A DNA stretch of 64,000 bases, taken from positions 1 to 64,000 of the forward strand of contig NZ_JARFVB010000007.1 of the NCBI RefSeq assembly GCF_029193885.1. The letters run 5' to 3'. A program made the translations under genes and the position numbers. Source of the stretch: Flagellimonas yonaguniensis (GTDB taxonomy: Bacteria > Bacteroidota > Bacteroidia > Flavobacteriales > Flavobacteriaceae). Every line of letters starts with the position of its first letter. Position 1 is the stretch's first letter. Below are positions 1 through 3,439 of this stretch, piece after piece. Under the pieces are notes generated by a model, which had not been told where the DNA came from, did no database searches, and saw only the letters and a list, made by a program, of their open reading frames with translations.

Positions 1-127
1 GACTTTTTACAGATAGATCTAATCTAAAGGTGGGTCACTTTGGCCCGGCGGGGGTGGGTCACTTTCGTCCGGCCAGCTATGGTCACTTTAACCCGGCGAG
101 GGTGGTATACTATGTCCGGCGTTTCCA
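1..127. mobile_element. End of an IS21-type insertion sequence (partial)
   Basis: Four related units of about 22 bp lie at 29-50, 53-74, 79-98 and 101-121, repeating every 23-24 bp. Each has the form GGTGGGTCACTTT followed by CCGGCG or a close variant. Multiple terminal repeats of this kind are characteristic of IS21-family elements in Bacteroidota. Read on the minus strand, the presumed terminus starts with TGG at 127. The transposase genes istA and istB would lie to the left, outside the window. The element appears to have landed in the 3' part of the neighbouring ParB-like gene. The family assignment rests on repeat architecture only. Confidence 0.6.
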
Positions 128-1405
128 TTCAGGCGTACAATCTGCCATTTTTCTGTTGGCCAATGGTGCCGAATAATCTGTTGATTCATCTTTTGTTTTT
201 TCAACAATTTTTATGAAGACTTCTTTATTCCTGTACGTTTCAGGATGGAACAAAATGCCATTGACAAATCCATTTTCTTTCGCTGAATTATATTTCACAA
301 ATTCTTCATCATAGTCCTGTTTTGCTTCTTCAAGTTCAGCTTTCAATCGTTCTTCAGAATAATCATAGTGTTGATATTCTATCTTAATATCCTGGATTGT
401 TGGCTCAATCGGATGCACTATAATTTCAACATCATCCAGTAGATAGACTTTCAATCCCTTCTTTTCTAATTGTGATATAATTAGCTGATTGTTTTCGTCA
501 TCTGCCCAATACTGTCGCATTTCAGGGATTAAAAAGATATTCTCTTTCTTGGACTTTTCAATCAGGTTTAAGAACGATTTACTTTTCTTAGTTTCAAAAC
601 AGGCTGCTTTTGTACAGACCATTTTACCATCGCCGAACAGATTGCCTTGATTTGCCGCGTTGAAAGGACATTCAACGCAAGACCCAGCTTTTGGGACCAA
701 TTTTTTATCGGCTACATCAAAAGATGCTTTTTCCAAATCGTAGGTCTGGTCTTTAATCATCTTGTTTATCTGATGCGCATTAAAATCCTCGCCCATCGTT
801 TCCAGCATCATCTGTTGTTCTTCCGGTTCAAAGAGCGCGACACCTACACCCAAGGAAATGGTCATTTCGCCATTGCGGACATAGTGCTTGAAACCGTCAA
901 TCAATCCAGCTAATTTTAATCGCTGTCTGATGAAGTTATCCGTTCTACCTAATCGCTTTGCGATTTCAGATGTTGAATACTTTTCACTTAGGTAAGCAAT
1001 TGCCTCGGCTTCTTCGGTAGGTTCAACATCTTGTCTTTGCAGATTTTCGATGATTTGAACTTCCAGAATATCATTGGTCTCATAAGTCCTCACGATACAG
1101 GGCACAGTCTTCTTTCCTGCCAGCTTGCTTGCGCGATATCGGCGTTCGCCCATCACGATGATGTAATGGCCATTTAGTTGCCTTACCGTGATTGGTTGCA
1201 ACACACCGTGCTTTTCGATACTCTCAGAAAGCTGCTGCAAGGCATCATCATTAAAAGTCTTTCTGGGCTGCTCAAGGTCAGGCTTGATTTTACCCAATGG
1301 TAAGTTCTGAATTTGAAGTGCGGATGATTTCTTTCCATTTACTTCTTTCTTGGCAGCTACTTTAGTTCTACTGCGCTTCTTTGTGGTACTAGCTTTTGTT
1401 GTCAT
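110..1405 (-). CDS. ParB/RepB/Spo0J-family protein, 3' end truncated by an IS
   Basis: ParB-like DNA-binding protein of an integrative element. The ParB/Srx domain covers roughly residues 35-130 and includes the signature GERRYRASKLAGKKTVPC. A helix-turn-helix follows (TSEIAKRLGRTDNFIRQRL). A Cys-rich segment around residues 240-270 has CVEC and CTKAAC and may bind metal. Such ParB proteins are common on Bacteroidota conjugative transposons and plasmids, where they act in maintenance or regulation. A longer reading starts at a TTG at 1414; the ATG at 1405 is preferred. The last residues (WKRRT) and the stop codon are encoded by IS terminal repeat sequence, so the native C-terminus is lost. 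Whether the shortened protein still works is unknown. Confidence 0.8.
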   Translation of the reverse strand: MTTKASTTKKRSRTKVAAKKEVNGKKSSALQIQNLPLGKIKPDLEQPRKTFNDDALQQLSESIEKHGVLQPITVRQLNGHYIIVMGERRYRASKLAGKKTVPCIVRTYETNDILEVQIIENLQRQDVEPTEEAEAIAYLSEKYSTSEIAKRLGRTDNFIRQRLKLAGLIDGFKHYVRNGEMTISLGVGVALFEPEEQQMMLETMGEDFNAHQINKMIKDQTYDLEKASFDVADKKLVPKAGSCVECPFNAANQGNLFGDGKMVCTKAACFETKKSKSFLNLIEKSKKENIFLIPEMRQYWADDENNQLIISQLEKKGLKVYLLDDVEIIVHPIEPTIQDIKIEYQHYDYSEERLKAELEEAKQDYDEEFVKYNSAKENGFVNGILFHPETYRNKEVFIKIVEKTKDESTDYSAPLANRKMADCTPEWKRRT

Positions 1406-1770
1406 AATACTCAAATTTTTGATTAAACAATATTTGAGCAGAAACCAAACGGAAGATAAAATCTTGGCTCAAAAGGAAACGGAATAAATGAGTAGTGGAA
1501 GAAGTGTTGGCTTTATGCCGTAGTCTTTTGATGGAAGTATTTTACGAGTTTACCTTGCGTGTATATTGTATGATAATAAACCCCTCTAACGAAGAACGAA
1601 GGTTGAGCTAACCTAAAATTTATTAATTCTCAATAAAGAAAATTGTATTTGGTATCAAATGAAAGGATATAGTATTAAAGCCAATTCGGTTCTGAAAAAA
1701 GACAAAATGTTGTACCTATGTTGTACCCAAGGTCAAAAATCGTGAAGAAAAGCCGCATTTTTAAAATGAA
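1406..1770. other. Non-coding stretch between the ParB gene and tRNA-Leu
   Basis: About 365 bp, AT-rich, with no convincing ORF on either strand. It must hold the ParB promoter (minus strand), but I could not fix one confidently. It probably also contains the element end and attachment site next to tRNA-Leu. Confidence 0.5.
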
Positions 1771-1797
1771 AAAGCCGAAGATTTCTCTTCGGCTTTT
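1771..1797 (-). terminator. Hairpin terminator of tRNA-Leu
   Basis: An 8-bp perfect stem (GCCGAAGA / TCTTCGGC) with a 4-nt loop sits directly after the tRNA-Leu 3' end on the minus strand and is followed by a T-rich run. It fits a Rho-independent terminator. Confidence 0.7.
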
Positions 1798-1798
1798 G

Positions 1799-1880
1799 TA
1801 CGGGCGGGGAGACTCGAACTCCCACACCTCGCGGCATCAGATCCTAAGTCTGACGTGTCTACCAATTCCACCACGCCCGC
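1799..1880 (-). tRNA. tRNA-Leu (UAG anticodon)
   Basis: A complete class II tRNA. The acceptor stem GCGGGCG pairs with CGCCCGT, the D-arm contains GGTAGACACG, and the anticodon loop CTTAGGA gives anticodon UAG. A short variable arm and the T-arm GTTCGAGTC follow. The discriminator base is A, as expected for Leu, and CCA is not encoded. A partial second copy lies 33 bp upstream of its 5' end. Confidence 0.95.
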
Positions 1881-1913
1881 ATTTTAACAATATTTTAAGA
1901 ACCTATACTTGGT

Positions 1914-1956
1914 TAAATCCTAAGTCTAGCGTGTCTACCAATTCCACCACACCCGC
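1914..1956 (-). pseudogene. 5' half of a second tRNA-Leu (attachment-site remnant)
   Basis: About 43 nt match the 5' half of tRNA-Leu (acceptor 5' strand GCGGGTG, D-arm, anticodon loop CTTAGGA). Similarity stops in the 3' side of the anticodon stem; no variable arm, T-arm or acceptor 3' strand follows. Sequence differences from the intact copy (GCGGGTG against GCGGGCG) show it is not a simple local duplication. The break point fits integrase crossover at an anticodon loop. A promoter stands immediately upstream. Confidence 0.75.
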
Positions 1957-1967
1957 GAAATGGAGTG

Positions 1968-1997
1968 CAAATATAAATCAATTTTCCGATTTGCAAA
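1968..1997 (-). promoter_or_regulatory. Bacteroidota-type promoter in front of the tRNA-Leu pair
   Basis: On the minus strand, TTTG (1997-1994), an 18-bp spacer and TATATTTG (1975-1968) match the Bacteroidota -33/-7 consensus TTTG-N19-TAnnTTTG. It lies 12 bp upstream of the half tRNA and would transcribe through it into the intact tRNA-Leu. Confidence 0.65.
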
Positions 1998-2053: not shown

Positions 2054-3439
2054 ATGAAAGACATAAATAATTACATCAGTACCAACAAGGACAGATTTAT
2101 CAACGAGTTGATCGACCTTTTAAAAATCCCCTCAATAAGTGCCGATAAGGCATACGCCAAAGACGTTCTGAAAGCCGCTAAAGCTGTTAAAAAATCTTTG
2201 GACGATGCAGGTTGCGAAAACACGGAGATTTGTGAAACCAAAGGATACCCCGTGGTGTATGGCGATAAGATCATAGACCCCAATTTGCCCACCGTTTTGG
2301 TGTACGGCCATTACGATGTGCAACCCCCGGACCCAATCGACTTGTGGGACTCCCCTCCTTTTGAGCCCGTCATCAAAAAGACGGAGCTACATCCCGATGG
2401 GGCCATTTTTGCCCGTGGGGCCTGCGACGATAAAGGCCAGTTCTTTATGCACGTCAAAGCCGTGGAATTTATGATCAAAAACGATACACTGCCCTGCAAT
2501 GTAAAATTCATGATCGAAGGAGAGGAAGAAGTGGGAAGCGATAGTTTGGAGGATTTCCTAAAGGAAAACAGCGAAAAATTCAAAAATGATATCATCCTTA
2601 TTTCCGATACAGGTATGATTTCCAATGATACCCCATCCATTACAACGGGATTGCGCGGACTTAGCTATGTGGAAGTGGAAGTAACCGGCGCCAACCGTGA
2701 TCTTCACTCGGGAATATACGGTGGAGCCGCACCAAACCCCATCAACGTACTCGCTAAAATGATAGCACAACTACATGATGAGGATAACCATATCACCATC
2801 CCTGGTTTTTATGATAAAGTGGAAGTCATCTCAGATGACGAGCGTGCTGAAATGGCCAAAGCCCCTTTTGACCTTGAAGCTTACAAAAAATCATTGGACA
2901 TTGGCGATGTACACGGAGAAAAAGGGTATTCCACACCAGAGCGATTCGGCATCCGTCCCACCTTGGATGTGAATGGAATCTGGGGAGGCTATATGGGCGA
3001 AGGGGCAAAAACCGTAATCGCCAGTAAAGCTTATGCCAAAATATCGATGAGATTGGTCCCAGACCAAGATTGGCACGAAATCACCGACCTGTTCACCAAA
3101 CATTTTGAATCCATTGCCCCAAAAAGTGTGAAAGTGAAGGTAACTCCCCATCACGGAGGTCAGGCATACGTAACACCAATTGACAGCATTGGCTACCAAG
3201 CAGCTTCCAAAGCCATGGAAACCACCTTTGGAAAAACACCTGTTCCACAACGAACCGGAGGAAGTATACCAATCGTGGCCCTTTTTGAAAGCGTTTTTGA
3301 CAGTAAGACCATCCTTCTTGGATTTGGTTTGGACAGTGATGCCATCCACTCCCCCAACGAACATTTTGGGGTCTGGAACTTTTTAAAGGGCATTGAAACC
3401 ATACCCTATTTTTACAAGTATTTCAACGAAATTTATTAA
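2054..3439 (+). CDS. M20-family dipeptidase
   Basis: Zinc-dependent metallopeptidase of the M20 (ArgE/DapE/carnosinase-like) family, 461 residues, a usual length. Metal and catalytic motifs are visible: GHYDVQPP with metal ligand His86, the bridging Asp in RGACDDKGQ (about residue 125), EGEEEVGS with the general-base Glu (about 157-158), and a late His in SPNEHFG. The dimerisation domain fits the middle region with DLHSGIYGG. There is no signal peptide, so it is probably cytoplasmic and cleaves imported di- or short peptides. It is followed 23 bp later by a secreted S9 peptidase in the same direction, so the pair may form a peptide-degradation unit. Confidence 0.92.
   Translation: MKDINNYISTNKDRFINELIDLLKIPSISADKAYAKDVLKAAKAVKKSLDDAGCENTEICETKGYPVVYGDKIIDPNLPTVLVYGHYDVQPPDPIDLWDSPPFEPVIKKTELHPDGAIFARGACDDKGQFFMHVKAVEFMIKNDTLPCNVKFMIEGEEEVGSDSLEDFLKENSEKFKNDIILISDTGMISNDTPSITTGLRGLSYVEVEVTGANRDLHSGIYGGAAPNPINVLAKMIAQLHDEDNHITIPGFYDKVEVISDDERAEMAKAPFDLEAYKKSLDIGDVHGEKGYSTPERFGIRPTLDVNGIWGGYMGEGAKTVIASKAYAKISMRLVPDQDWHEITDLFTKHFESIAPKSVKVKVTPHHGGQAYVTPIDSIGYQAASKAMETTFGKTPVPQRTGGSIPIVALFESVFDSKTILLGFGLDSDAIHSPNEHFGVWNFLKGIETIPYFYKYFNEIY

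Follow-up and report, generated by a model that had tools for sequence, protein, structure and literature searches.

The window, the whole 64,000-nucleotide stretch analysed here, is contig C42 from its first base in the draft genome under study (G000; 44 contigs, 99.84% complete). Near its start, a broken and a complete tRNA-Leu(UAG) lie one behind the other on the reverse strand, between a ParB-like gene and a peptidase gene; a related element in another genome, G555, serves as reference. The features are as follows.

1..127, no strand: DNA not common to the G555 element, and contig end (the G555 alignment begins at 128)
110..1414, minus: ParB-like gene of the element (Pfam ParB_N, HTH_ParB; 434 aa in this reading, against 595 aa in G555)
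1769..1797, minus: intrinsic terminator of the element tRNA, AAAAGCCGAAGA..TCTTCGGCTTTTT, hairpin and T-run (direct reading)
1799..1880, minus: complete element-borne tRNA-Leu(UAG) (ARAGORN; Rfam tRNA, 57.9 bits)
1881..1916, minus: left end of the element, an AT-rich spacer of 36 bp without a recognised promoter
1917..1927, minus: attachment core AGACTTAGGAT in the anticodon loop region, with copies at both element ends (in the window, and on contig C41 by the integrase)
1917..1956, minus: stranded 5' half of the resident tRNA-Leu(UAG), matching the relatives' uninterrupted genes as far as the core
1968..1996, minus: resident promoter, TTG (-33), N18, TATATTTG (-7) (direct reading)
2054..3439, plus: resident flanking gene, M20-family peptidase (Pfam Peptidase_M20, M20_dimer)

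The motif TTG-N18-TATATTTG, which from the consensus we take to be a promoter, reads from 1996 to 1968, where an earlier sequence-only reading of this DNA had also placed a promoter just before the tRNA-Leu 5' half; the same motif precedes the uninterrupted gene of relatives (for example G001 and G017). Past ...AGACTTAGGAT, the resident half gives way to unrelated sequence. The split that the sequence-only reading described in the anticodon region is real, with the break in the 3' stem strand, one base beyond the loop, and the gap to the second tRNA is short as it had said, but measures 36 bp (1916-1881) to the last resident-matching base and not 33 bp, three extra bases presumably having been counted as tRNA. 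The second tRNA-Leu(UAG) is intact and has its own terminator, as had been claimed and as ARAGORN, Rfam and the hairpin and T-run at 1797-1769 bear out; its anticodon stem is TCAGA:TCTGA, and CCA is not encoded. Among 16 element tRNAs inspected, 13 have a similar terminator on their 3' side and one further terminator is cut by a contig end. Window positions 1-127, at the contig end and outside the G555 element, hold GGTGGGTCACTTT-type repeats, possibly another mobile element interrupting parB.

A whole-genome search located the 3' half of the resident tRNA-Leu(UAG), which the sequence-only reading had expected at the far end of the element, at positions 29679-29734 of contig C41. Its sequence opens with the core AGACTTAGGAT and closes with CACCCGCACCA, after which come a hairpin and T-run; some 210 bp away begins a 404-aa tyrosine integrase (domains Arm-DNA-bind_5, Phage_int_SAM_5 and Phage_integrase) that reads away from the 3' half. 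Between the stranded 5' half (GCGGGTG...CTAGA) and this 3' half (TCTAG...CACCCGC), 7/7 acceptor pairs and 5/5 anticodon-stem pairs form. A script recovered full pairing of host halves in 12 of 14 genomes chosen for the test; in the other two (G005 and G008) a base before the loop differs and the script pattern missed the 3' half, and by reading TCTAG and CACCCGC pair there as well. The two ends of the element lie on separate contigs in this genome (C41 and C42), and both match the G555 element, which is contiguous over ~55 kb: C41:1-29732 aligns at 98.8-99.98% identity, and window positions 128-1956 align to its other end at 92.6%, these two ends being the parts located in G000.

The displaced half also bears on another account, in which the tRNA gene was duplicated locally in tandem and one of the copies then decayed, without any element. 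Tandem tRNAs exist, and an array of eight rungs in G577 (below) may include a tandem duplication; at the present locus, however, this account needed the 3' half to be absent, and the half was found. An integrase adjoins it; in G000 the two tRNA halves are on different contigs, and in relatives that have both on one contig the distance between them runs from 22 kb (G008) to 73 kb (G586). The same spacer, tRNA and terminator stand behind different host flanks (an identical spacer recurs behind differing flanks in G019, G030, G267 and G278). We consider a decayed tandem duplicate extremely improbable and have set it aside in favour of an integrated element.

Relatives of the genome supply the uninterrupted state. 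With the joined empty-site sequence as query, matches were obtained in 60/60 genomes of the same genus, and the best 30 matching loci all hold an uninterrupted, scar-free gene with the stem CTAGA:TCTAG; the ranking favours completeness, but the pre-integration state is visible at these loci. Direct reading recognised the interrupted layout in 12 of the 60 genomes, the remainder having been read in part. The draft genome itself yields 37 tRNA matches, four of them tRNA-Leu (TAA, CAA, GAG and TAG), and the sole tRNA-Leu(UAG) found is the element-borne window copy at 1799-1880. The comparison with relatives and the copy-number count proposed by the sequence-only reading thus both came out in its favour: one uninterrupted gene without a tandem scar stands at the best 30 loci, one tRNA-Leu(UAG) was found, and neither of the contrary results it had named (the same tandem in element-free relatives, or an absent 3' half) appeared. 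Separately, four tRNA-Leu(UAG) matches with CTAGA stems lie in a single genome at G322:C12:269359-282218 (L388 covers three of them).

The arrangement recurs across the Flavobacteriaceae, which we surveyed in overlapping sets of 397, 149 and 48 genomes. A strict tandem pattern (5' half, spacer, second tRNA start) occurs in 16/397 genomes, this one included, as against 0/397 for its reversed control, and is therefore not due to chance. Among 149 genomes drawn at >=90% completeness, 134 match the full tRNA-Leu(UAG) pattern, in 138 rows, and in 31 of these rows the anticodon stem is not CTAGA (16 TCAGA, 12 CCAGA, 2 TTAGA and 1 CTTGA, by reading). These 31, 25 of them read upstream and six already in the strict-pattern set, comprise 22 ladders, that is, a host 5' half, 33-47 bp and a complete foreign tRNA, together with one core without a 5' half (L386) and eight scar-free rows, all eight CCAGA. 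No scar was seen within 120 bp in any of the 27 of 107 CTAGA rows that were read upstream (three from one genome). The ladder layout is thus present in 22/149 genomes (21/148 without this genome), in all of which the sole tRNA-Leu(UAG) pattern match is element-borne, and translation of some leucine codons in them would therefore depend on a mobile element, a dependence that could act as an addiction trait. When genomes were instead reached via related integrases, a ladder was found in 42 of 48 of the UAG type (39 from a first listing and three more), with a single scar-free tRNA in three (G599-G601) and three assigned to neither class; G559, G587, G596 and G545 are unclassed, and the ladder search covered loci other than L134 and L159. 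Element tRNAs also occur at sites without a host 5' half (L386 in G321:C10, and L310 and L311 in G574); G321 has a CTAGA tRNA elsewhere.

The body of the element is visible in G555. On this contiguous copy, the integrase and conjugation genes lie between the junctions, and its scanned proteins include a TraG P-loop protein (two fetched pieces), TraM, DUF4138, a coupling protein, DUF5712 and ParB, with 3/10 scanned lacking a family; cargo among selected C41 proteins consists of efflux pumps, P-type ATPases and a cation-efflux protein. No phage family scored above the cut-off among 18 proteins scanned, and no close relative of the integrase was found in viral_contigs. In plasmid records, the query of core, spacer and tRNA gave 59 matches, none covering 80%; in the 20 rows listed the match starts at query base 46-51 and so comprises the tRNA alone. 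By these tests, the gene content of the G555 copy fits an integrative element with conjugation genes of the Bacteroidota type, and the element is not a temperate phage. A 21.8-kb member in G008 (L323, L324; C9:1138700-1160300) carries type I restriction, GmrSD, TIR, SLOG and other genes; it was considered as a conjugative element and rejected, with no transfer gene among ten scanned of 18 listed ORFs.

Elements of this kind also stack. In G555, the element has inserted into the tRNA carried by an older element, so that the 5' halves of the host and of the first element precede the tRNA of the second, with both 3' halves downstream in nested order. The most extended case, in G577 (L301; G577:C30:23134-23808), comprises eight stacked 74-bp rungs, each made up of a 5' half and a spacer, with a single intact tRNA after them; T and C alternate after the core from rung to rung, which suggests tandem duplication within this array.

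Integration at tRNA genes ordinarily leaves a working hybrid, the element carrying a 3' half that completes the tRNA at the junction; excerpts of PMC4383910 describe this as the customary mode for islands that target tRNA genes. It also appears to operate within the present integrase family, where single scar-free tRNAs, which we read as ordinary hybrid rescue, accompany the integrase in 6/12 CAA-type and 3/48 UAG-type genomes. At the window locus, however, a dead 5' half stands upstream of a whole tRNA whose acceptor and anticodon-stem bases differ from it, and in 66/70 rungs the five bases after the loop are unable to complete the anticodon stem. Because the core shared by the element ends is only 11 bp, a working tRNA is restored at neither junction. 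A junction hybrid is ruled out here by the presence of a complete tRNA on its own and by the displacement of the host 3' half, and we give that reading hardly any credence beside the supply of a whole tRNA by the element.

The integrases of the two target types are related. Among 77 related-integrase loci in named genomes, the exact UAG core GACTTAGGAT adjoins the integrase in 52, and a tRNA-Leu(CAA) 3' half takes its place at others. A prediction that the sister CAA clade would carry complete tRNA-Leu(CAA) genes was borne out in 5/12 genomes (G544, G547, G548, G549 and G554), in which a complete tRNA-Leu(CAA) of a different type begins ~25 bp after the host 5' half; besides the scar-free six, one of the 12 showed only a 3' half. 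In the integrase tree, built without L132, L188, L189 and L190 and with 19/74 rows labelled 'unk' (L139 and L154 are unlabelled though their genomes have ladders), the CAA clade has support of 98/93 and those of its members that carry a whole tRNA are surrounded by hybrid types, while the distant UAG hybrids L185-L187 form a separate branch (100/100). This topology suggests that whole-tRNA rescue arose at least twice, the direction of change being uncertain given long branches, 19 unlabelled rows and a midpoint root.

Of 60 distinct ladders, 56 have the -7 element TANNTTTG in the 110 bp upstream and 42 have the full motif there, with four of the 60 lacking the -7 motif. A consensus scan of the dead half and spacer of the same distinct ladders found the -7 motif in 0/60 and the full motif in 0/60. 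At the integrase-side ends, which precede the tRNA in the circular form, the full motif occurs in 0/58 and the -7 motif in 6/58, compared with 0.7 and 6.5 in mononucleotide shuffles. Such absence is not proof, because 10 of 30 ordinary tRNA loci in G000 also lack the -7 motif (-7 in 20, full motif in 13; some are not first in their cluster). Spacer length is held at 33-37 bp in 59/60 ladders and is 47 bp in one. The sequence-only reading had supposed that the intact copy has no promoter of its own, and the motif scans agree, with none found in front of it; for this reason the carried tRNA probably works only once integrated.

An element tRNA with its own unrecognised promoter, for which capture of the host promoter would be incidental, is the alternative of most weight, and we regard it as unlikely. 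The scans above searched for a consensus only, in the closest known system a promoter of its own serves the phage tRNA that was tested (excerpts of PMC10865867), and one common spacer type contains TTAATTTG, one base off the -7 motif. The complete lack of the -7 motif from the 60 dead-half and spacer stretches, set beside its 56/60 frequency in host flanks, its shuffle-like frequency at the integrase-side ends, and the constancy of the spacer argue instead for use of the host promoter. Two features of leaders were noted in passing. In L273, L274, L281, L283, L286, L287 and L289, from Salegentibacter, Leeuwenhoekiella, Aquimarina and Aequorivita, a hairpin whose loop GTCCTAAGT is the reverse complement of the anticodon loop region stands between promoter and tRNA-Leu(UAG). 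By eye, the leaders of L206 (G044) and L216 (G056) contain, upstream of the tRNA, a degenerate tRNA-Leu 5' part split by the palindrome CCTGTCTGCCGACAGGCAGG.

The carried tRNA looks functional from its pattern of substitution. Across 27 distinct element tRNAs, 621/621 stem cells are paired, and 12/23 pairs have changed on both sides, as compared with a mean of 5.2 and a maximum of 9 in 500 shuffles; a smaller set of 17 hand-picked tRNAs gave 391/391 cells paired and 12 pairs versus 4.9. In one of the 27 (L210, G003) a T-loop base is changed. When the leader is folded with the tRNA, the mean probability of native pairs is 0.31, versus 0.54 for the tRNA alone. Misfolding was considered as the cause of the changed anticodon stem and dropped because the difference is too small (native pairs have a mean probability of 0.311 with the real stem as against 0.300 when the host stem is put in its place, the real stem giving the higher value in 37/54).

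We are therefore highly confident that an element integrated at the host's only tRNA-Leu(UAG), split the gene and supplied a complete tRNA behind the host promoter; the central proposal of the sequence-only reading, that an element cut the resident gene and provided a full tRNA, stands on the 3' half by the integrase, the uninterrupted relatives and the single copy found. The DNA itself shows that the gene is split, that both halves exist, that relatives have it uninterrupted, that one copy is present, that the layout recurs and that the promoter motif is absent; from this we infer transcription and expression of the carried tRNA, its processing, its essentiality and excision of the element. 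A tyrosine integrase would insert the element at the anticodon loop of the sole tRNA-Leu(UAG) gene, bringing in a complete tRNA-Leu(UAG) and terminator 36 bp inside the left junction without a recognised promoter. Integration would then set this tRNA behind the host tRNA promoter, and transcription from there would traverse the dead 5' half and the spacer before reaching the element tRNA, which RNase P would free.

One possible reason for carrying a whole tRNA lies in its stems. In the final tRNA of 60 ladders the anticodon stem is always complementary (TCAGA 33, CCAGA 17, TTAGA 7 and CTTGA 3), and the carried stem is never CTAGA, the stem of 55 of the 60 first 5' halves (CCAGA in five). Interior rungs are CCAGA in 4/4 ladders having them, and never TCAGA, TTAGA or CTTGA. 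A hybrid of host 5' and element 3' parts would have at least one acceptor mismatch in 30/60 distinct ladders (26/60 rows with repeated loci). We tentatively propose, as a possibility short of an even chance, that the whole promoterless tRNA is an integration-gated survival device that spares the element a match to the host acceptor stem and rewrites the anticodon stem recognised by the integrase, leaving a poorer target and a record of nested insertions. Both gains, acceptor freedom and target immunity, would then be out of reach for a carrier of a 3' half. The stem counts fit target immunity, with interior cases few, related elements biasing the counts, and the eight scar-free hosts themselves CCAGA.

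Whole-tRNA rescue itself is already in print, as tRNA-dependent lysogeny in mycobacteriophages (Guerrero-Bustamante and Hatfull 2024, PMC10865867, on actinobacteriophages). As far as excerpts of that paper describe them, those phages share with the present elements a tyrosine integrase, a short core in a tRNA gene (8-17 bp in phage table rows), the failure of either junction to rebuild the tRNA, and an encoded tRNA of the disrupted isotype; both rescue modes also occur there among related integrases (phages Omega and Gaia), as in the UAG/CAA family here. The phages are temperate and the tested phage tRNA has a strong promoter of its own, whereas here conjugative elements and islands of Bacteroidota set the tRNA behind the host promoter, a short and constant way in from the junction, stack their insertions, and carry an anticodon stem that is never the commonest host one. 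The element thus works like tRNA-dependent lysogeny without being a member, not being a phage by the tests made, and the main mechanistic difference would be promoter use, as judged from motif scans. The same excerpts leave open how the two rescue modes are related; with both modes and two target isoacceptors in one integrase family, that relationship becomes testable by phylogeny.

Other systems resemble parts of the arrangement. In Sinorhizobium meliloti, phage-related sequences inactivate tRNA-Leu(UAG) by integration and replace it with their own 80.6% similar tRNA-Leu(UAG) (PMC11476347, excerpts), the same isoacceptor and principle in Alphaproteobacteria and in a phage-related setting, the word 'promoter' being absent from the main text; related prophages rebuild the tRNA (PMC12429752, excerpts). 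The Discussion of PMC10865867 mentions prophage Lj965 of Lactobacillus johnsonii, a phage of another phylum unlike the Bacteroidota elements, in which the tRNA is reportedly not rebuilt and a cognate tRNA is encoded. Classical tDNA islands (Islander, PMC4383910; PMC8371274) share the integrase, the anticodon-loop site, the displaced 3' half and tandem arrays, but in the excerpts consulted carry a gene-restoring fragment, in contrast to the whole gene and separate dead 5' half here. Bacteroides elements of the CTnDOT/NBU1 type are alike in phylum and in transfer genes (TraG, TraM and DUF4138 in the G555 copy) and differ in crossover point (PMC10865867 places the NBU1 core at a tRNA-Leu 3' end) and in the whole tRNA carried here. 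Tycheposons (PMC10872708, excerpts) likewise have a tyrosine recombinase and a tRNA gene at their boundary. In the titles and abstract openings searched, from a literature that includes few subscription journals, no paper on whole-tRNA rescue by elements of Bacteroidota was found. What is new here is its occurrence in Bacteroidota conjugative elements and islands, with promoter capture, target switching and stacked insertions, which extends it to integrative elements of another phylum with apparently different wiring, a promoterless-looking tRNA taking the host promoter.

Lastly, the same genome has a second whole-tRNA replacement, at a tRNA-Met(CAU) gene on contig C40, where a 5' half (123970-124012) is followed after 28 bp by a complete tRNA (124041-124114; L321, L322). 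The matching 3' half lies on the same contig, ~155 kb away at C40:279488-279535, adjoining an integrase 46% identical to that of the tRNA-Leu site. The tRNA-Met spacer recurs in G370, which belongs to another genus, and the pattern occurs in 2/249 genomes, this genome included.
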